Below, in pieces: positions 41,009 through 49,186 of a DNA stretch of 64,000 bases (within the stretch, counting starts at the first letter, position 1; each line of letters starts with the position of its first letter). Position numbers and translations under genes: made by a program. Source of the stretch: Yonghaparkia sp. Root332 (GTDB lineage: Bacteria; Actinomycetota; Actinomycetes; Actinomycetales; Microbacteriaceae); assembly GCF_001425665.1 (NCBI RefSeq), contig NZ_LMCX01000001.1, positions 865,651 through 929,650 on the forward strand. Reading direction: 5' to 3'. The notes under the pieces are model-generated. The model saw only the letters and a list, made by a program, of their open reading frames with translations, was not told the DNA's origin and did not search any database.

Positions 41009-43423
41009 ATGTCCTTCCTGCCCGACGAGTCCCTCGACATCCCCGGTCTCACGCCGCCGCCGCGTGCGCAGCCCCCCGCCGCCGCACAAACCGCCCCCGC
41101 CGCCGCGACCGACGACCCCCTGCTCGCGGGCCTCAACCCGCAGCAGCGCGCGGCCGTGCTGTCGCGCGCCGAGGCGCTGCTCATCGTCGCGGGCGCGGGC
41201 TCGGGCAAGACGAGCGTGCTGACCCGGCGCATCGCGCGCCTGCTGCGCGATCGCGAGCTGTGGCCGAGCCAGATCCTCGCCATCACGTTCACGAACAAGG
41301 CCGCGGGCGAGATGCGCGAGCGGGTCGGCCAGCTCATCGGCCACGAGGCCGCGAACGGAATGTGGATCTCCACCTTCCACTCCGCGTGCGTGCGCATCCT
41401 GCGCCGCGAGGCCCAGCAGTTCGGCTTCACGCAGGCCTTCACGATCTACGACTCCGCCGACTCGCGCGCCCTCATCAAGCGCATCGTCAAGGACCTGCAG
41501 GCCGACACCCTCGGGCTCACGGTCAGCGCTGCGTCCGGCAAGATCTCGCGCCTGAAGAACGAGCTCATCGACGCGGAGGGCTACAGCCGCCAGCTCAACC
41601 CGAACGATCCGACCGAGGTGATGTTCCTCGAGGTGTTCCGCCGCTACTCGGCCGAGCTCGCCCGGGCGAACGCCTTCGACTTCGACGACCTCATCGCGCA
41701 GACGGTCTACCTGTTCCGCGCCTTCCCGCAGGTCGCGGCGCTCTACCAGCGCCGCTTCCGGCACATCCTGGTCGATGAGTACCAGGACACGAACCATGCC
41801 CAGTACGCGCTCATCCGCGAGCTGACGCGGGCGGTCGAGCCGCAGCACGTGCCCGCCGACACCCGCATCGAGACCGACGCGACCGGGGGCATCCCCGCTG
41901 CGGCCCTCACGGTCGTCGGCGACTCCGACCAGTCGATCTACGCGTTCCGCGGCGCCGACATCCGCAACATCGTCGAGTTCGAGCGCGACTTCCCGGGCGC
42001 CGAGGTGATCCTGCTCGAGCAGAACTACCGATCGACCCAGACGATCCTCGACGCCGCGAACGCCGTGATCGGCAACAACTTCGACCGCATCGCCAAGAAC
42101 CTCTTCACCGAGGTCGGCGCGGGCGACAAGATCACGGGCTTCACCGGCTACAGCCAGCACGACGAGGCGCAGTTCGTCGCGGACGAGATCCAGAAGCTGC
42201 ACGAGCAGGGTGTGCCGTACAACCAGATCGCCGTGTTCTACCGCACCAATGCGCAGACCCGCGCGCTGGAGGAGATCTTCATCCGCTCGGCGCTGCCGTA
42301 CCGGGTGCTCGGCGGCACGAAGTTCTACGAGCGCGCCGAGATCAAGGACGTCATGGCGTACCTGATCGCGGTCGCGAACCCCGCCGACGCGCTCGCGCTG
42401 CGGCGCATCCTGAACACCCCGAAGCGCGGCATCGGGCCGGCGACGGAGACGGCCCTCGCCCTCCACGCCGACCAGCTGGGCGGCACCATGCGCGATGCGC
42501 TGGGGGATGCCGCGGCTCTCGGTCTCGGACCGAAAGTCACCGCGGCCATGCTCGACCTCGCCGGTGTTCTGGACGGCGCCTCGGCGAAGGTCGACACCGC
42601 GCTCGTGCCCGACATCCTGACTGCGATCCTCGAGCGGACGAAGTACGTCGAGCTGCTGCGCGCGAGCCGCGACCCGCAGGACGAGGCGCGCGCCGAGAAC
42701 GTGGAGGAGCTCGTGGCGGTGACCCGCGAGTTCCAGCGCAACAACCCCGAGGGTCGCCTCATCGACTTCCTCACCGAGGTCGCGCTCGTCGCGGCCGCCG
42801 ACGACCTCGACGACTCGAGCGGCACGGTGTCGCTCATGACGCTTCACACCGCGAAGGGCCTCGAGTACGACGCCGTCTTCATCACGGGCGTGGAGGAGAA
42901 CCTCCTGCCCCACCAGATGAGCGCGAGCGAGCCCGGCGGCCCGGCGGAGGAGAGGCGCCTGTTCTACGTCGGCATCACGCGCGCCCGCAAGAGGCTGCAC
43001 CTCTCTCTCGCCATGACGCGCTCGACCTTCGGCGACACCCAGGTCGCCGCGCCCAGCCGGTACCTCCAGGAGATCCCCGCCGAGCTCATCGACTGGCGCG
43101 ATGCCCCCGGCATGGGCAATCGATCGGGTTCGAGCCAGCGCGCGCTGGGCACGACCCGCAGCGGGCGCGAGCAGTTCAGCTACGGCACCTCGCTCCCGCC
43201 CGGCAAGCCGAAGACCGAGTGGGCGAACCGGGTGACGGCGACCGTGCGCGACAACGGCGACCTCACCCTCGCCGCCGGCGACCGCATCCGTCACGTCGAC
43301 TTCGGCGAGGGGCGCGTGACGGCCGTGACGGGCATCGGGCCCAAGAGCATCGCCGAGGTGCAGTTCGAGTCGGCGGGGCGGAAGAGGCTCCTCATCAAGA
43401 TCGCGCCCATAGAGAAGCTGTAA
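41009..43423 (+). CDS. pcrA: ATP-dependent DNA helicase PcrA/UvrD
   Basis: Superfamily 1A 3'-5' helicase used in repair and replication-restart. The 804-aa protein shows the Q motif LNPQQRAAV, motif I VAGAGSGKTSVL, Ia TFTNKAAGEMRERV, II VDEYQDTN, III VGDSDQSIYAFRGAD, V LMTLHTAKGLEYDAVF and VI VGITRARKRLHLS. A Tudor-like C-terminal end (RIRHVDFGEGRVTAVTG) fits PcrA. In many actinobacteria pcrA lies close to sucCD; here an accessory operon separates them. Confidence 0.96.
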   Translation: MSFLPDESLDIPGLTPPPRAQPPAAAQTAPAAATDDPLLAGLNPQQRAAVLSRAEALLIVAGAGSGKTSVLTRRIARLLRDRELWPSQILAITFTNKAAGEMRERVGQLIGHEAANGMWISTFHSACVRILRREAQQFGFTQAFTIYDSADSRALIKRIVKDLQADTLGLTVSAASGKISRLKNELIDAEGYSRQLNPNDPTEVMFLEVFRRYSAELARANAFDFDDLIAQTVYLFRAFPQVAALYQRRFRHILVDEYQDTNHAQYALIRELTRAVEPQHVPADTRIETDATGGIPAAALTVVGDSDQSIYAFRGADIRNIVEFERDFPGAEVILLEQNYRSTQTILDAANAVIGNNFDRIAKNLFTEVGAGDKITGFTGYSQHDEAQFVADEIQKLHEQGVPYNQIAVFYRTNAQTRALEEIFIRSALPYRVLGGTKFYERAEIKDVMAYLIAVANPADALALRRILNTPKRGIGPATETALALHADQLGGTMRDALGDAAALGLGPKVTAAMLDLAGVLDGASAKVDTALVPDILTAILERTKYVELLRASRDPQDEARAENVEELVAVTREFQRNNPEGRLIDFLTEVALVAAADDLDDSSGTVSLMTLHTAKGLEYDAVFITGVEENLLPHQMSASEPGGPAEERRLFYVGITRARKRLHLSLAMTRSTFGDTQVAAPSRYLQEIPAELIDWRDAPGMGNRSGSSQRALGTTRSGREQFSYGTSLPPGKPKTEWANRVTATVRDNGDLTLAAGDRIRHVDFGEGRVTAVTGIGPKSIAEVQFESAGRKRLLIKIAPIEKL

Positions 43424-43529
43424 GTCCCGAGACGCCCGTGTGAACGTCCTGGCCCGTGCGGCGTGCGAGCGACGCCGACCCGCACGCACCAGAATGGGTG
43501 ACGACGATCATCCGATGAAGGAGACGACC

Positions 43530-43865
43530 ATGGATCTCGTGTCCATCCAGCACCCCGGCGGAGTCACCGAGCTCACCCTCGACGGCCGCCTGAACATGGT
43601 CACCGCCGCGCGCGTGCGCGAGGCCATCCACGAGGCGATCGTGGCGAACAGCGCCTCGATCGCGGTCGACCTGTCGAGGACGTCGTTCCTCGACTCCTCC
43701 GGTCTCGGAGCCCTCGTCTGGGGCCTCAAGGCCGCCCGCGAGGCCGGAGGCGACCTCGTGCTCGTGAACCCCACCGAGCAGGTCGTCCTCGTGCTCGACC
43801 TGACCAACATGAACGCGACCCTGCGGTCGTTCACGAGCGTCGCCGAGGCCTACCCGCATGGCTGA
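43530..43865 (+). CDS. STAS-domain anti-sigma-factor antagonist (first copy)
   Basis: 111 aa, a single STAS fold. [19 protein letters not shown] holds the conserved phosphorylatable Ser56. AAGGAG lies six bases before the ATG at 43530; upstream in-frame codons are not supported. Such proteins are dephosphorylated by PP2C enzymes and sequester RsbW-like kinases, and the next gene encodes both activities. It overlaps that gene by eight bases. Confidence 0.9.
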   Translation: MDLVSIQHPGGVTELTLDGRLNMVTAARVREAIHEAIVANSASIAVDLSRTSFLDSSGLGALVWGLKAAREAGGDLVLVNPTEQVVLVLDLTNMNATLRSFTSVAEAYPHG

Positions 43866-45468
43866 CATGGTGGCGCGCACTCTGCGCATCACCTCCCCGC
43901 CCGACACCGTCGACACCGTCCACTCCGCCCTCGAATCCGTCTGGGCGGTCGTGCCCGACGTGCACCCCACCGACCGGATGTCCGTGGAGACCGCCGTCAT
44001 CGAGCTCACCGCGAACGTCATCCAGTACGCCAATCGCGGAAACCCGGTCTCGTTCGCCCTCACGATCGTCGTCTACGACGATCGCATCGAGGCGACGCTG
44101 AGCGACGGGGGAGAGGTCGACGACGTCGGCCTCCACGACCGCGGGATGCCCGAGCCGATGGCCGAGCACGGCCGCGGCATCCCGATGATCCAGGCGCTCG
44201 TGGACTCGGTCGAGCACCGCCGCGTCGAGGGCTTCAACCACTGGACTCTCGTGCGCGCGCGCGAGGCCTCGCGCGACGTCCTGACCCCGGCCCGCGGCCT
44301 CCCCTCGGTCTCGATCAGCGGCGTCATCGACGAGATGGCACGGCAGCGCGCGCTCGAGGAGCTCGCGATACTCGACACCGCCCCGGAGGAGCGCTTCGAC
44401 CGCGTGACCCGCCTCGCGCAGCAGCTGTTCGGCGTGACGGGCTCTGCGATCAACCTCATCGACCGCGACCGGCAGTGGTCGAAGTCGATGGTCGGGCCGT
44501 TCGGCACCGAAGTGCCGCGCGAGAACTCGGCGTGCGCCGTGACGATCGAGTCGGACGACACGCTCGTCGTCGCCGACCTCACGGCCGCACCCGGCTTCGA
44601 GCTCATCGCCATCCCCGGCGAGTTCGAGTTCTACGCCGGTCACCCGCTCTACGCTCCGGGCGGCGAGCGCATCGGATCGTTCTGCGTCTACGACGCGAAG
44701 CCCCGGCACTTCAGCGAGAAGGAGGCCGCGATGCTGCGCGACCTCGCCGCGTGGGTGCAGCAGGAGCTGTCGGTCAGCCAGGAGCTGAGCCGCGCCGCCG
44801 AGGTGCAGCAGGGCCTCCTGCCGCAGCAGCTGCTGAGCATGCCCGGGTGGGACATCGCCGGCATGTGCCTGCCCGCGCGCGCGGTCGGCGGCGACTTCTT
44901 CGACTGGTACCCGGTGGGGGAGGGCGCGGCGTTCACGCTCGCCGACACGATGGGCAAGGGCATCGGGGCCGCGATCATCGCCGCCACCGTGCGAGCCGTG
45001 CTGCGATCGGCGGCGCGATTCGGCGACGTCGCCGGCGCGGTCGACGCGGCCGCGGCATCCCTCACCGGCGACCTCGACTCGACGGGCCTGTTCGTCACGC
45101 TCTTCCACGGTCGTCTCGACATGGACTCGGGCGAGCTGACCTTCGTCGATGCGGGCCACGGTCTGACCTTCATCGCGCGGGCCGACGGCACGGTTGAACG
45201 ATTGAAATCGACATCGCCTCCCCTCGGGATCGACATCGAGACCGAGTGGATCCCGCAGACGGTGACGATCGAGCCCGGCGACGCGCTCATCAGCGTGAGC
45301 GACGGCGTGCTCGATCTCTACGACGGCGTCCCCGAGGCGCTCGAGAGCGTCACGACGCTCACCCTGCTCGCCGACAGCGCCGCGGAGATCGTCGATGCGA
45401 TGCGCGCGCGTGCGCGAGGCGTGGCCCCCGACGACGTGACCGTCCTCGTCGTCCGGAGAGACGTGTGA
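43858..45468 (+). CDS. RsbW-like kinase-GAF-PP2C (SpoIIE) fusion protein
   Basis: 536 aa in three parts. Residues about 1-135 form a GHKL ATPase with the N box IELTANVIQYANRG and the G box HGRGIPMIQALV. Residues about 165-305 form a GAF domain (ILDTAPEERFDRVTRLAQQL, CAVTIESDD). Residues about 315-536 form a SpoIIE/PP2C phosphatase with Asp346 in GGDFFDW, Asp363 in ADTMGKG, and SVSDGVLDL. The chain could therefore phosphorylate and dephosphorylate STAS partners under control of a GAF ligand. No membrane segment. STAS genes lie at both ends of the operon. Confidence 0.88.
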   Translation: MADMVARTLRITSPPDTVDTVHSALESVWAVVPDVHPTDRMSVETAVIELTANVIQYANRGNPVSFALTIVVYDDRIEATLSDGGEVDDVGLHDRGMPEPMAEHGRGIPMIQALVDSVEHRRVEGFNHWTLVRAREASRDVLTPARGLPSVSISGVIDEMARQRALEELAILDTAPEERFDRVTRLAQQLFGVTGSAINLIDRDRQWSKSMVGPFGTEVPRENSACAVTIESDDTLVVADLTAAPGFELIAIPGEFEFYAGHPLYAPGGERIGSFCVYDAKPRHFSEKEAAMLRDLAAWVQQELSVSQELSRAAEVQQGLLPQQLLSMPGWDIAGMCLPARAVGGDFFDWYPVGEGAAFTLADTMGKGIGAAIIAATVRAVLRSAARFGDVAGAVDAAAASLTGDLDSTGLFVTLFHGRLDMDSGELTFVDAGHGLTFIARADGTVERLKSTSPPLGIDIETEWIPQTVTIEPGDALISVSDGVLDLYDGVPEALESVTTLTLLADSAAEIVDAMRARARGVAPDDVTVLVVRRDV

Positions 45469-47519
45469 GCCCGGAGAACGACCTGACGCCGGAGACCTCC
45501 GCGCGTCGCCATCTGCTCCTGCGGATCCTCGTCCTGCTGACGCTCACCTCCGGGCTCGTCTACATCTCGTGGCGATGGACGGCCTCGCTGAACTTCGACG
45601 CGTGGTGGATCGCGATCCCTCTCGTCGTCGCGGAGACCTACAGCATCATCGACGTGGCTCTCTTCGGCATGACCATGTGGAGGGCCAGGCGGCGGCCGGC
45701 GCCGCCCGCCGCCCCCGATGGCGCGACGGTCGACGTCTTCATCACGACCTACAACGAGGACGTCGAGCTCGTCTCCGCCACCGCCGCCGCGGCGCGGCGG
45801 ATCAGCTTCCCGCATCGCACCTGGATCCTCGACGACGGCGCCCGGCCCGAGATGGCGAAGGCCGCCGAGGCGCTCGGAGTCGGATACATCACGCGCACGC
45901 CCGACTGGAAGAACAAGCCGCTTCACGCGAAGGCGGGCAACGTCAACAACGCCCTCATGCAGACGGACGGCGAGTTCCTCCTGATCCTCGACGCGGACCA
46001 GATCCCCCGTCCCGAGATCCTCGACCGGACGCTCGGCTACTTCGACGATCCGCGGGTCGCGCTGGTCCAGACCCCGCAGCGCTTCTCGAACGTCGCGTCG
46101 GGCGACCCTCTGGGCAGTCAGGCTCCGCTCTTCTACGGTCCGATCCAGCAGGGCAAGGACGGCTGGAACGCCGCATTCTTCTGCGGCTCCAACGCCGTCC
46201 TGCGGCGCGACGCGCTCATGCAGCTCGGCGTCACGCGCTACGTCGTCGAGCTCGAGCAGGCGCTCGTCCGGGCGCTCCGCGGGGCGCGCAGCGTCATCCG
46301 TCGCGCGCGCCGTCATCCGGCGGCGGCGCACCCCGGGGTCTCGGAGGCGCTCGACGAGGTCCAGGCCGCCCTGCGTGACGCTCGGCAGGCGCTCGCCGCG
46401 GGTCAGGCCTTCGGGCGCGTCACCTACGACCTCCAGAGCCGTGTCGGCGAGATCTCGAGCCGCCTCGTCGAGTCCGACCTCCGACTGATCCGCTCCGATC
46501 TGGATGCCCTGCGCGAGCTCCCGATGGAGTCGGACGAGACCGTCGACACGGTCTCCGACATCGACCTGACGATCGACCGCCTGACGGCTCAGCAGCTCAG
46601 CCCCCTCGGCGCGATCGAATCCGTGCAGCGGCTCATCCGCTCGATCGACGTCGATCGTCACGACGAGGCGCAGCCCCTCATGCCGCTCGCCACGATCTCG
46701 GTGACGGAGGACATGGCGACGTCGATGCGCCTGCACGCTCTGGGCTGGTCGAGCGCGTACCACCACGAGACGCTCGCCGACGGTCTCGCGCCGGACGATC
46801 TGGGCACGATGCTCAAGCAGCGCCTTCGCTGGGCGCAGGGGACGGTCCAGGTCATGCTCCGCGACAATCCTCTGGTCAAGCGGGGCCTGAGCCTCGCGCA
46901 GCGCCTCATGTACTTCTCGACGATGTGGAGCTACCTCAGCGGGTTCGCGGCCGTGGTCTACTTCACGGCGCCGGTCGTCTTCCTCCTCTTCGGGATCCTC
47001 CCCGTGGACACGACGGCCGCGGAGTTCTTCCTCCGCTTCCTGCCCTTCATGGTGCTCAACCAGCTGATGTTCCTGGTGGCCAGCCGCGGGGTCTCGACCT
47101 GGCGCGGGCAGCAGTACAGCCTCGCGCTCTTCCCCGTGTGGATCCGCGCCGTCGTGAGCGCCGCGGGCAACGTACTCGCGGGCCGCCCGCTCGACTTCGT
47201 GGTCACGGCGAAGAGCCGCCAGTCCACCTCCGGAGGATGGCGGCTCGTGCGCTGGCAGCTCGTGGTCGCCGTGGTCCTCATCGTCGCGGCCGTCGTGGGG
47301 ATCGTGCGCCTGGCGCTCGGAGTCGGGGAGTGGATCGGGACCGCCGTGAACCTCGCCTGGGTCGTGTTCGACCTGGTGATCCTGAGCGTGCTGATCCCCG
47401 CGCTGCGGTACGACGGCTACGACGGTGACGGTGCGGAGGCGCCGGAGGATGCCGCCGACGCTCGCGATCTCCGCGCGCGCGTCGGCGATGAGAGAGGAGA
47501 GGCCCATGGAGCTGAGTGA
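45465..47519 (+). CDS. Cellulose-synthase-like family 2 glycosyltransferase with helical insertion
   Basis: 684 aa. Two N-terminal membrane helices precede the GT-A domain: DVFITTYNEDVE, ILDDGA, LDAD (176-178), CGSNAVLRRDAL, TED (414-416) and QRLRW (452-456), the D,D,D,QxxRW set of BcsA-type processive synthases. C-terminal helices follow. Between residues about 252 and 408 is a charged, helical insertion ([38 protein letters not shown]) where normal synthases have only a few residues. No PilZ domain is seen, so cyclic di-GMP control as in BcsA is not indicated. GTG start overlaps the preceding stop as GTGA. Confidence 0.88.
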   Translation: MSPENDLTPETSARRHLLLRILVLLTLTSGLVYISWRWTASLNFDAWWIAIPLVVAETYSIIDVALFGMTMWRARRRPAPPAAPDGATVDVFITTYNEDVELVSATAAAARRISFPHRTWILDDGARPEMAKAAEALGVGYITRTPDWKNKPLHAKAGNVNNALMQTDGEFLLILDADQIPRPEILDRTLGYFDDPRVALVQTPQRFSNVASGDPLGSQAPLFYGPIQQGKDGWNAAFFCGSNAVLRRDALMQLGVTRYVVELEQALVRALRGARSVIRRARRHPAAAHPGVSEALDEVQAALRDARQALAAGQAFGRVTYDLQSRVGEISSRLVESDLRLIRSDLDALRELPMESDETVDTVSDIDLTIDRLTAQQLSPLGAIESVQRLIRSIDVDRHDEAQPLMPLATISVTEDMATSMRLHALGWSSAYHHETLADGLAPDDLGTMLKQRLRWAQGTVQVMLRDNPLVKRGLSLAQRLMYFSTMWSYLSGFAAVVYFTAPVVFLLFGILPVDTTAAEFFLRFLPFMVLNQLMFLVASRGVSTWRGQQYSLALFPVWIRAVVSAAGNVLAGRPLDFVVTAKSRQSTSGGWRLVRWQLVVAVVLIVAAVVGIVRLALGVGEWIGTAVNLAWVVFDLVILSVLIPALRYDGYDGDGAEAPEDAADARDLRARVGDERGEAHGAE

Positions 47520-47874
47520 GCGGATGACGGATGACGGCATCTCGGTGGTGTCGCCGTCGGGGCGTCTGACGATGGTCGGAGCCCCGGACCTGCGTGAGAT
47601 GGTCTCGAGCCTCGTCCGGGACGGGCGCACCCGTCTCGTCGTCGACCTGAGCGGCGTCACGTTCCTCGACTCCTCCGGCCTCGGGGCGCTCGTGGCCGGT
47701 CTGAAGTCGGCGCGTCAGGCGGGCGGCGACCTGCGGATCGCCGCGGCCTCCGAGCAGGTCCTCCTCGTCCTCAAGCTCACGAGCCTGGATCGCGTGCTCG
47801 AGCCCCACGCGAGCGTCGACGCGGCGTTCGCCGAGCTCCGCCCGCGGGATCGGCGGGGGCGTCGGGCTCGCTGA
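47506..47874 (+). CDS. STAS-domain anti-sigma-factor antagonist (second copy)
   Basis: 122 aa. [21 protein letters not shown] places the conserved Ser at residue 56, exactly as in the first copy, and the two proteins align along their length, so they are paralogues. The start overlaps the glycosyltransferase end by 14 bases and AGGAG precedes it. A basic tail RDRRGRRAR is specific to this copy. Confidence 0.9.
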
Positions 47875-47903
47875 CGAGTGTCACCGATGCCTCTCGGCGG
47901 GAG

Positions 47904-47956
47904 TACCCTGGACGAGGCCGTTTCTCTCGATATCGAGAGATCTCTCGACGTCGAAC
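47904..47956 (+). promoter_or_regulatory. sucCD promoter with two tandem palindromic operators
   Basis: TACCCT (47904-47909) is a candidate -10. Downstream lies TCTCTCGATATCGAGAGA (47923-47940), a perfect 18-base palindrome, directly followed by the degenerate copy TCTCTCGACGTCGA at 47941-47954. A third palindrome, CGAGAGATCTCTCG (47934-47947), bridges the two. The position just after the predicted transcription start suggests repression. The regulator is not identifiable. Confidence 0.6.
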
Positions 47957-48022
47957 CACCTCGAGACCGAGAACCGCCGGCCGGTTCCGACGTACATCGC
48001 ACGTGGATGGGAAGAGCAGAGC

Positions 48023-49186
48023 GTGGATCTTTTCGAGTACCAAGCACGGGACATGTTCGAGAAGCACGGTGTTCCCGTGCTCGCCGGCATCGTCGCCGAC
48101 ACCCCTGAGGAAGCCCGCGCCGCGGCCGAGAAGCTCGGCGGCGTCACGGTCGTGAAGGCTCAGGTCAAGACCGGAGGCCGCGGCAAGGCCGGCGGCGTCA
48201 AGGTCGCCAAGACGCCGGAGGACGCGGAGGCCGCGGCCGAGGCGATCCTGGGCCTCGACATCAAGGGCCACGTCGTCAAGCGCGTCATGGTCGCCGCCGG
48301 AGCGGACATCAAGGAGGAGTTCTACTTCTCCGTCCTGCTCGACCGCGCGAACCGCAGCTACCTCGCGCTGTGCAGCTACGAGGGCGGCATGGAGATCGAG
48401 CAGCTCGCCGAGGAGCGCCCCGAGGCGCTCGCGCGCGTCGAGGTCGACCCGGGTCGCGGCATCGACCTGGACAAGGCGCGCGAGATCGCGGTCGAGGCGA
48501 AGTTCCCGACCGAGCTCGTCGAGAAGGTCGCCCCCGTCTTCGTGACGCTGTACGACGTGTACGTGAAGGAGGACGCGACGCTCGTCGAGGTCAACCCGCT
48601 CGTGCTCACCGGCGCCGGCGACATCGTCGCCCTCGACGGCAAGGTCTCCCTCGACGAGAACGCCTCGTTCCGCCAGGCCGACCACGCGGCGCTCGAGGAC
48701 AAGGACTCGACCGACCCGCTCGAGGCCAAGGCCAAGGAGCACGACCTCAACTACGTCAAGCTCGACGGCGAGGTCGGCATCATCGGCAACGGCGCCGGGC
48801 TCGTCATGTCGACGCTCGACGTCGTCGCCTACGCCGGTGAGGCGCACGGCGGCGTGAAGCCCGCCAACTTCCTCGACATCGGCGGCGGCGCCTCGGCCGA
48901 GGTCATGGCCGCGGGCCTCGACGTCATCCTCGGCGATGAGCAGGTCAAGAGCGTGTTCGTCAACGTCTTCGGCGGCATCACCGCGTGCGACGCCGTCGCG
49001 AACGGCATCGTGAAGGCCCTCGAGATCCTCGGCGACACGGCGACCAAGCCGCTCGTCGTCCGACTCGACGGCAACAACGTCGAGGAGGGTCGCCGCATCC
49101 TCGCCGACGCGAACCACCCGCTCGTGACGATCGCGAGCTCCATGGACGAGGGCGCCGACAAGGCCGCCGAGCTGGCTGCGAAGTAA
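48023..49186 (+). CDS. sucC: Succinate-CoA ligase (ADP-forming) subunit beta
   Basis: Beta subunit of the TCA-cycle enzyme linking succinyl-CoA and ATP formation. The 387-aa protein starts [19 protein letters not shown] (ATP-grasp), has [25 protein letters not shown] and [18 protein letters not shown], and [17 protein letters not shown]. The GTG at 48023 follows GGGAAGAGC. It forms an operon with sucD, eleven bases downstream. Confidence 0.97.

Follow-up and report, generated by a model that had tools for sequence, protein, structure and literature searches.

Partner-switching systems are made up of a single-domain STAS protein with a phosphorylatable serine, an RsbW-type HATPase kinase and a protein phosphatase 2C (PP2C), and act on a cognate sigma factor of the SigB, SigF or SigG type or, in other described cases, on an enzyme. 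The DNA considered here is a 64,000-nucleotide stretch of the actinomycete Yonghaparkia sp. Root332 (the window), in which four overlapping genes encode a STAS protein (STAS1), an RsbW-GAF-PP2C fusion, a BcsA-type membrane synthase with an insertion, and a second STAS protein (STAS2). The initial annotation had described this order and gene overlaps of 8, 4 and 14 bases; coordinates and overlaps turned out to be exact, and the domains were confirmed (Table 1). We give roughly even credence to the proposal, drawn from sequence comparison, that partner switching gates insertion-type synthases post-translationally, on or off.

In Sinorhizobium the STAS protein BgrV works with the partners BgrU and BgrW. 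The BgrV system is likewise a STAS-based partner switch governing a BcsA-like glucan synthase without PilZ, BgsA (PMC8457831, PMC5567048), but there STAS acts on a diguanylate cyclase (BgrR) and cyclic di-GMP (c-di-GMP) on the synthase, and the hosts are Rhizobiales (PMC8457831); the window module has no cyclase, its synthase carries a dedicated insertion, and its host belongs to the Actinomycetes. In the SiaABCD and HsbA-HsbD systems of Pseudomonas aeruginosa, phosphorylation of a STAS protein (HsbA) or a STAS-like one (SiaC, DUF1987) sets its action on an enzyme rather than a sigma factor, SiaC binding its enzyme directly; that enzyme is, however, a diguanylate cyclase and not a polysaccharide synthase (PMC8457831). 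SypA and SypE of Vibrio fischeri offer a further parallel, since unphosphorylated single-domain SypA promotes polysaccharide-dependent biofilm and one protein, SypE, is both serine kinase and phosphatase, but the target of SypA is reported as unknown and syp is an 18-gene locus (PMC4517449, PMC8256260). In Anabaena a STAS domain is joined to a glycosyltransferase (all4160) that is reported to be needed for an envelope polysaccharide (PMC8256260 and a title in its reference list); there the STAS domain is N-terminal and the host a cyanobacterium, whereas three relatives of the window synthase have a C-terminal fusion. Finally, SigB and SigF switches such as RsfB-RsbW2 of Mycobacterium smegmatis use the same kinds of protein, with a controlling STAS serine and a kinase without sigma-factor binding of its own (PMC7693655); the window module differs in having no sigma factor of these types.

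Glucan or biofilm output is known to be tuned by partner switches, and in the cases compared here the switch works through a diguanylate cyclase or a target reported as unknown. No account of a synthase-STAS-RsbW operon or of the insertion was found in the open-access literature, subscription journals lying mostly outside the search, and no partner-switch terms were found in PMC9495663.

Most insertion-type synthases are accompanied by STAS and RsbW

The initial annotation called the presence of a synthase in such a module unusual. The arrangement is instead widespread, with synthases of the insertion type in ten actinomycete families that were sampled. Three sets of loci were compared. A draw of 398 genomes from the family contained 109 that matched the synthase at 1e-30; 73 insertion-bearing loci came from 71 of these genomes, among them that of the window; family matches stopping at residue 255 were mostly counted as insertion-less from the extent of the match alone. 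A profile of the insertion matched 23 of 394 genomes from the class and 23 of 396 from the order, and the order/class set comprises 40 loci, 39 of them outside the family (weak second matches in G836, G947 and G1059 and matches in G1007 and G723 were left out). A phylum draw of 396 genomes, whose make-up is partly listed, gave two matches, one in the window's own genome and one within the class. The third set comes from named genomes and is not random: 578 relatives were ranked by their match to a query of the fusion type, and the best 80 were kept. Candidates first scored per genome numbered two for the family and eight for order, class and phylum, and the tallies are lower bounds. Because the sets overlap, the 193 rows reduce to 182 distinct synthases, and those that have STAS and RsbW, 153 rows, to 144.

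A STAS gene and then an RsbW gene stand directly 3' of the synthase in 54 of the 73 family loci, 37 of the 40 order/class loci and 62 of the 80 named loci. Two family loci, the window and L053, have STAS 3' and RsbW fused into the upstream protein; two others were counted as misses in the 54, namely L124, where the synthase frame is shortened and both genes lie beyond the distance rule, and L075, which has the STAS-RsbW pair upstream. A PP2C domain lies within 6 kb in 36 of the 40 order/class loci. The most frequent order is (GAF-)PP2C, synthase, STAS, RsbW. The full order was recovered in nine of the ten families, and the single locus of the tenth (L197) stops at a contig edge, as do L288 and L296, the three being without STAS or RsbW. 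With the same order in nine families, chance is no sensible account. Named loci with both genes include members of Arthrobacter, Nocardioides, Clavibacter, Microbacterium, Cellulomonas, Kocuria, Gordonia, Rhodococcus, Mycobacterium, Kitasatospora and Geodermatophilus.

Insertion-less synthases behaved differently. Eight were hand-picked as controls from the weaker matches of the family search (two are paralogues from the window's genome); none of the eight has STAS or RsbW nearby, and five have PilZ. The association with STAS and RsbW thus appears to go with the insertion and not with the insertion-less paralogues examined. The window itself has the features of an insertion-type module: the insertion, STAS 3', and RsbW and PP2C nearby, here upstream and fused.

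Two expectations voiced in the initial annotation fared unevenly. The same four-gene order, which it had suggested looking for in relatives, is borne out as far as the synthase-STAS-RsbW core is concerned, but the window's own layout is a merged one. A synthase standing apart from signalling genes, which it had named as a counter-case, was seen in a few loci only, while the reverse dissociation is common within the genus (see below).

The synthase and its insertion

The synthase scores 58.7 and 91.2 bits with Glycos_transf_2 and Cellulose_synt, above the Pfam cut-offs. Its alignment to E. coli BcsA falls into two blocks, 21-255 against BcsA 201-447 and 408-642 against BcsA 449-684, and residues 256-407 are on that ground an insertion of about 150 residues between the motifs FFCGS (238) and TED (414), which line the active site. 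None of the eight paralogues that were examined showed this insertion. An AlphaFold2 model from a 61-row alignment has a mean predicted local distance difference test score (pLDDT) of 85.0 and shows the region of the insertion as long helices (248-281, 290-311 and 316-338). The closest solved structures are those of BcsA, and the synthase shares with it the fold, the catalytic motifs of glycosyltransferase family 2 (GT2) and the FxVTxK gating loop. It differs in the insertion, in its STAS, RsbW and PP2C neighbours, in the absence of a PilZ match (Pfam, E 0.01) and in scoring below the NCBIfam CelA cut-off (TIGR03030; 364.8 against 699.1 bits).

The polymer is predicted to be a beta-glucan, either cellulose or of mixed linkage. 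An OpgC-type acyltransferase gene is present in the fetched stretch of 32 of 72 family, 9 of 40 order/class and 21 of 80 named loci and in none of the eight insertion-less controls; the window's genome has no OpgC match. In L230 (8538-11297), L260 (8280-11339) and L067 (4706-8461) the acyltransferase has a long N-terminal part matching no Pfam family at 1e-5, and in L067 the gene 5' of it matches glycosyl hydrolase family 26 (GH26). The OpgC-type and GH26 neighbours suggest an exported, acylated and trimmed beta-glucan.

The switch proteins and the rest of the genome

Both STAS proteins score above the cut-offs of PF01740 (63.9 and 67.9 bits) and TIGR00377 (62.4 and 69.2 against 53.45 bits), and both contain D55-S56-S57-G, from which phosphorylation is predicted; the motif corresponds to the site of the phosphorylated serine in RsbV and SpoIIAA. 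The fusion protein exceeds the Pfam cut-offs for HATPase_c_2 (49.3 bits), GAF (44.2) and SpoIIE-type PP2C (112.5) and falls below those of the equivalog models for RsbW and SpoIIE. It has the N box, DGG and GRG motifs of the kinase and, as acidic motifs of the phosphatase, GGDFF, DTMGKG, SDGVLD and PDDVT. The components of a partner switch are accordingly all present apart from the sigma factor. None is encoded in the module, as the initial annotation had noted. The genome (2.63 Mb, two contigs) has nine Sigma70_r2 matches, and the eight that were classified are RpoD and seven proteins of the extracytoplasmic function (ECF) type, with no SigB, SigF or SigG type among them. Nor was any STAS domain found in the genome outside the module (E 0.001). 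A sigma factor as the output was dropped as the main account because of the eight classified sigma proteins.

Two further CelA-like synthases are encoded in this genome; their matches break at the start of the insertion and resume after its end. One of them bears PilZ, and the next gene, for a PAS-GGDEF-EAL protein, is the genome's sole GGDEF match. These two genes (C2:217178-220329; L127:7571-9916 and L127:9592-11925) look like a self-contained c-di-GMP/synthase pair. They lie on the contig other than the module's, and the GGDEF protein expected inside the module of a diguanylate-cyclase partner switch is not there. The genome therefore seems to hold two styles of control, PilZ with a GGDEF neighbour for the paralogue as against STAS, RsbW and PP2C for the insertion-type synthase. 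With no PilZ match in the latter and the sole GGDEF beside another synthase, a c-di-GMP reading of it is weakened.

A lineage with degraded insertions

The STAS motif DS[ST]G is intact in all 153 rows that have STAS and an adjacent RsbW, and lost in eight loci, none of which has an adjacent RsbW. The same eight are all the loci whose insertion scores below 60 bits (23-54, against 109-184 with RsbW). All eight keep STAS, three of them (L114, L116 and L227) as a C-terminal fusion with the synthase. Five of the eight genomes were searched, and all 11 of their HATPase_c_2 matches (1e-6) score at most 21 bits on the module's RsbW profile, on which the RsbW domains scored for comparison reach 133-161 bits and one divergent domain 34; no RsbW was found in these five by HATPase_c_2 at 1e-6 and the profile. 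A STAS domain that is retained, or even fused, without its kinase argues for a function beyond titrating RsbW. L227 is from Bifidobacterium tibiigranuli, outside the family of L114 and L116, and horizontal transfer of this fusion is possible.

Covariation

Distance correlations were computed for 112 loci below 90% identity, out of the 153 rows. Divergence of the insertion gave partial correlations of 0.23 with STAS and 0.19 with RsbW; corresponding values were 0.17 and 0.17 for the membrane part, -0.07 and 0.07 for the catalytic GT block, and 0.27 for STAS-RsbW, a known kind of pair. The number of 300 within-cluster shuffles reaching the observed value was 0 for insertion-STAS, 6 for insertion-RsbW, 16 for STAS-RsbW, 28 for membrane-RsbW, 73 for membrane-STAS and 76 for GT-STAS (for GT-RsbW it was also 0, in spite of a small value). 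For pairs within clusters, insertion-STAS (0.44) is close to STAS-RsbW (0.45). The covariation points to the insertion as the side facing the switch and is compatible with either STAS or RsbW as the protein that touches it. Mutual information with average product correction at first favored insertion-RsbW; it was dropped because STAS-RsbW, the positive control, had z = -0.2 against within-cluster shuffles.

Proposed mechanism and its alternatives

In the mechanism that we propose, the GAF domain would sense a signal, upon which the PP2C domain would dephosphorylate Ser56 of STAS. Unphosphorylated STAS, here STAS2, would engage the synthase and open it, with the insertion as the most likely point of contact; the RsbW domain would rephosphorylate STAS and take it away, so closing the synthase. 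That the unphosphorylated form is the active one is suggested by the kinase-less lineage, where STAS lacks the serine motif, and by analogy with SypA and SiaC. That STAS2 acts through the insertion is probable from the comparisons above. In BcsA a salt bridge between the GT and PilZ domains is reported to hold the gating loop until c-di-GMP binds; an insertion-type synthase, having the gating-loop motif without PilZ, would need another gate, and insertion plus STAS may stand in for the PilZ and c-di-GMP of an ordinary cellulose synthase. A broader form of the proposal, which we hold with slightly less than even confidence, is that these enzymes are a distinct actinomycete class of beta-glucan synthases gated directly, the inserted helical domain replacing PilZ and the phosphorylatable STAS replacing c-di-GMP, with STAS as a detachable regulatory subunit that has become permanently attached in the kinase-less lineage. 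The initial annotation had the phosphorylation state of STAS control the synthase directly or through a shared partner, on the model of Vibrio and Pseudomonas. That the synthase belongs with partner-switching proteins is upheld by the STAS and RsbW genes 3' of it in most relatives; direct control is what we infer.

A number of observations weigh against gating through STAS. In all ten named Curtobacterium loci the synthase and RsbW stand without an adjacent STAS, the insertion being intact (163-173 bits), so that RsbW itself could bind the synthase. Six of ten genomes of the window's genus have STAS1 and the fusion kinase with no synthase there and no insertion-type synthase found by the family search, and one, G366, retains both STAS proteins, the fusion and a second RsbW without the synthase. 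The eight motif-less STAS proteins adjoin one another in the leaf order of the STAS tree, and motif loss may have been one event only. The motif is intact in L089, and yet that genome (97% complete) has no HATPase_c_2 match at 1e-6; L223 has STAS without RsbW, and L224 and three Arthrobacter copies (L250, L303 and L304) have neither nearby. Covariation is unsteady too: other cluster limits change the ranking of STAS and RsbW, insertion-RsbW is about as large, GT-RsbW rises to 0.15-0.17, insertion-STAS is near zero in some clusters, and the covariation is absent or reversed in some, while at the tightest limit the STAS-RsbW control is 0.14 (reached by 35 of 500 shuffles). In a fold of the naturally fused protein of L227, pLDDT was below 60 over most of STAS and below 50 over much of it, so that the model carries no information on docking.

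The Curtobacterium loci favor a direct anti-synthase role for RsbW, which would bind the insertion and hold the enzyme off, much as it restrains sigma-B, until unphosphorylated STAS pulled it away. The insertion is degraded in exactly the eight loci that lack both RsbW and the STAS motif, as this account would have it, and the insertion-RsbW correlation is positive. STAS should then be useless without RsbW, however, and all eight of these loci keep it, three of them fused. Moreover, the seven searched genomes that probably belong to this genus and have no STAS at the synthase all carry a STAS-RsbW pair elsewhere (L140-L144, L147 and L148), which in leaf order adjoins the synthase-linked pair of L091, and G163 and G295, under the same genus label, have STAS in place. 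(In L141, the one locus given a Pfam scan, the displaced pair sits between major facilitator superfamily and phosphoenolpyruvate carboxylase genes and an AraC regulator.) We consider inhibition by RsbW unlikely on balance. Another account leaves the synthase in the operon for co-expression only, STAS, RsbW and PP2C controlling some other target such as a regulator, a cyclase or a step of transcription. It draws on the congeners in which the signalling genes persist without the synthase, and on BgrV, HsbA and SiaC, which are reported to work through a diguanylate cyclase. The module nevertheless has no cyclase, the only GGDEF protein of the genome adjoins another, PilZ-bearing synthase, the classified sigma proteins include no SigB type, the association follows the insertion rather than the paralogues examined, and STAS-synthase fusions exist; we regard this account too as rather improbable. 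Direct c-di-GMP control through the C-terminal tail, with the partner switch a minor modifier, has a precedent in BgsA, which likewise lacks PilZ and binds c-di-GMP through its tail (PMC5567048). The tail of the window synthase, after residue ~652, is short, variable among 17 aligned relatives and modelled with low confidence, and the lone GGDEF-EAL protein lies beside another synthase, so that such control seems very improbable here.

Within the genus, STAS1 and the RsbW-GAF-PP2C fusion occur as a pair in all ten same-genus genomes, always with pcrA before and sucC or sucD after, while the insertion-type synthase is present in four. Two of these congeners (G310 and G074; loci L062 and L086) have a stand-alone second RsbW, and the window and G340 are without it. 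Judged from gene order, the window is a merged layout in which a genus-wide switch and the family-wide synthase-STAS-RsbW unit stand together, the stand-alone RsbW being gone. Since STAS1 and the fused kinase persist where there is no synthase, the pair is not dedicated to it and must have another role there, and STAS1 probably has another partner. With no other kinase or phosphatase at the window locus, the fused protein probably acts on STAS1 and STAS2 alike.

The operon couples STAS, RsbW and PP2C to a single enzyme domain that can be recognised, and so offers a specific, testable candidate for what STAS proteins act on directly in polysaccharide control, which for SypA is reported as unknown. 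If the proposal is right, direct gating of a membrane synthase would join the outputs of partner switching, and an enzyme of the cellulose-synthase type would be controlled without c-di-GMP in genera from Arthrobacter and Nocardioides to Clavibacter and Microbacterium.

Layout of the locus and minor observations

Table 1. Features of the four-gene module (positions in the window)
Feature	Position	Strand	Basis
STAS1, single-domain STAS protein, 111 aa	43530..43865	+	PF01740 63.9 bits; TIGR00377 above cut-off; DSSG at 55
Putative phospho-acceptor Ser56 of STAS1	codon 43695-43697	+	motif reading
RsbW-GAF-PP2C fusion of 536 aa, a single chain joining kinase and phosphatase	43858..45468	+	Pfam domains
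RsbW-type ATPase/serine-kinase domain (HATPase_c_2, residues 13-128)	43894..44241	+	Pfam; N box, DGG, GRG motifs
GAF sensor domain (residues 176-303)	44383..44766	+	Pfam
PP2C/SpoIIE phosphatase domain (residues 356-534)	44923..45459	+	Pfam; GGDFF, DTMGKG, SDGVLD, PDDVT motifs
BcsA-type GT2 membrane synthase, GTG start, 684 aa	45465..47519	+	Pfam; motifs DDG, DAD, TED, QRLRW, FVVTAK gating loop
Helical insertion of synthase, residues 256-407	46230..46685	+	between FFCGS and TED; not in E. coli BcsA
STAS2, 122 aa; occupies the place that STAS has 3' of the synthase across the family	47506..47874	+	Pfam; DSSG
Ser56 of STAS2 (putative phospho-acceptor)	codon 47671-47673	+	motif reading
STAS1/RsbW-GAF-PP2C overlap, 8 bases	43858..43865	+	exact
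RsbW-GAF-PP2C/synthase overlap, 4 bases	45465..45468	+	exact
Synthase/STAS2 overlap, 14 bases	47506..47519	+	exact

The module is flanked by genes that we take, from a reading of the sequence, to be pcrA (41009-43423) and sucC (48023 on). A promoter and terminator scan of 43350-48100 yielded a single terminator-like site, on the minus strand, and nothing resembling a promoter. Of 64 named loci, 52 have overlapping synthase and STAS frames, and 62 have them either overlapping or at most 20 nt apart, start codons having been picked by rule. The overlaps suggest translational coupling; the initial annotation, in saying that they require joint translation, put this too strongly.

Three loci deserve brief mention. 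L224 (G987:C22) is a second copy of an insertion-type synthase without the stretch around QxxRW and without signalling genes nearby; a complete module (L225) is present in that genome as well, and L224 looks like a decaying copy. In G275 a second, divergent cluster of STAS, PP2C and RsbW-like genes (L135:7585-9254) lies beside a 1132-residue frame without a Pfam match (0.001). A synthase-free cluster in G026 (L145:6449-10143) combines STAS-RsbW with a GAF-PP2C gene and a gene for an LssY_C-domain protein.

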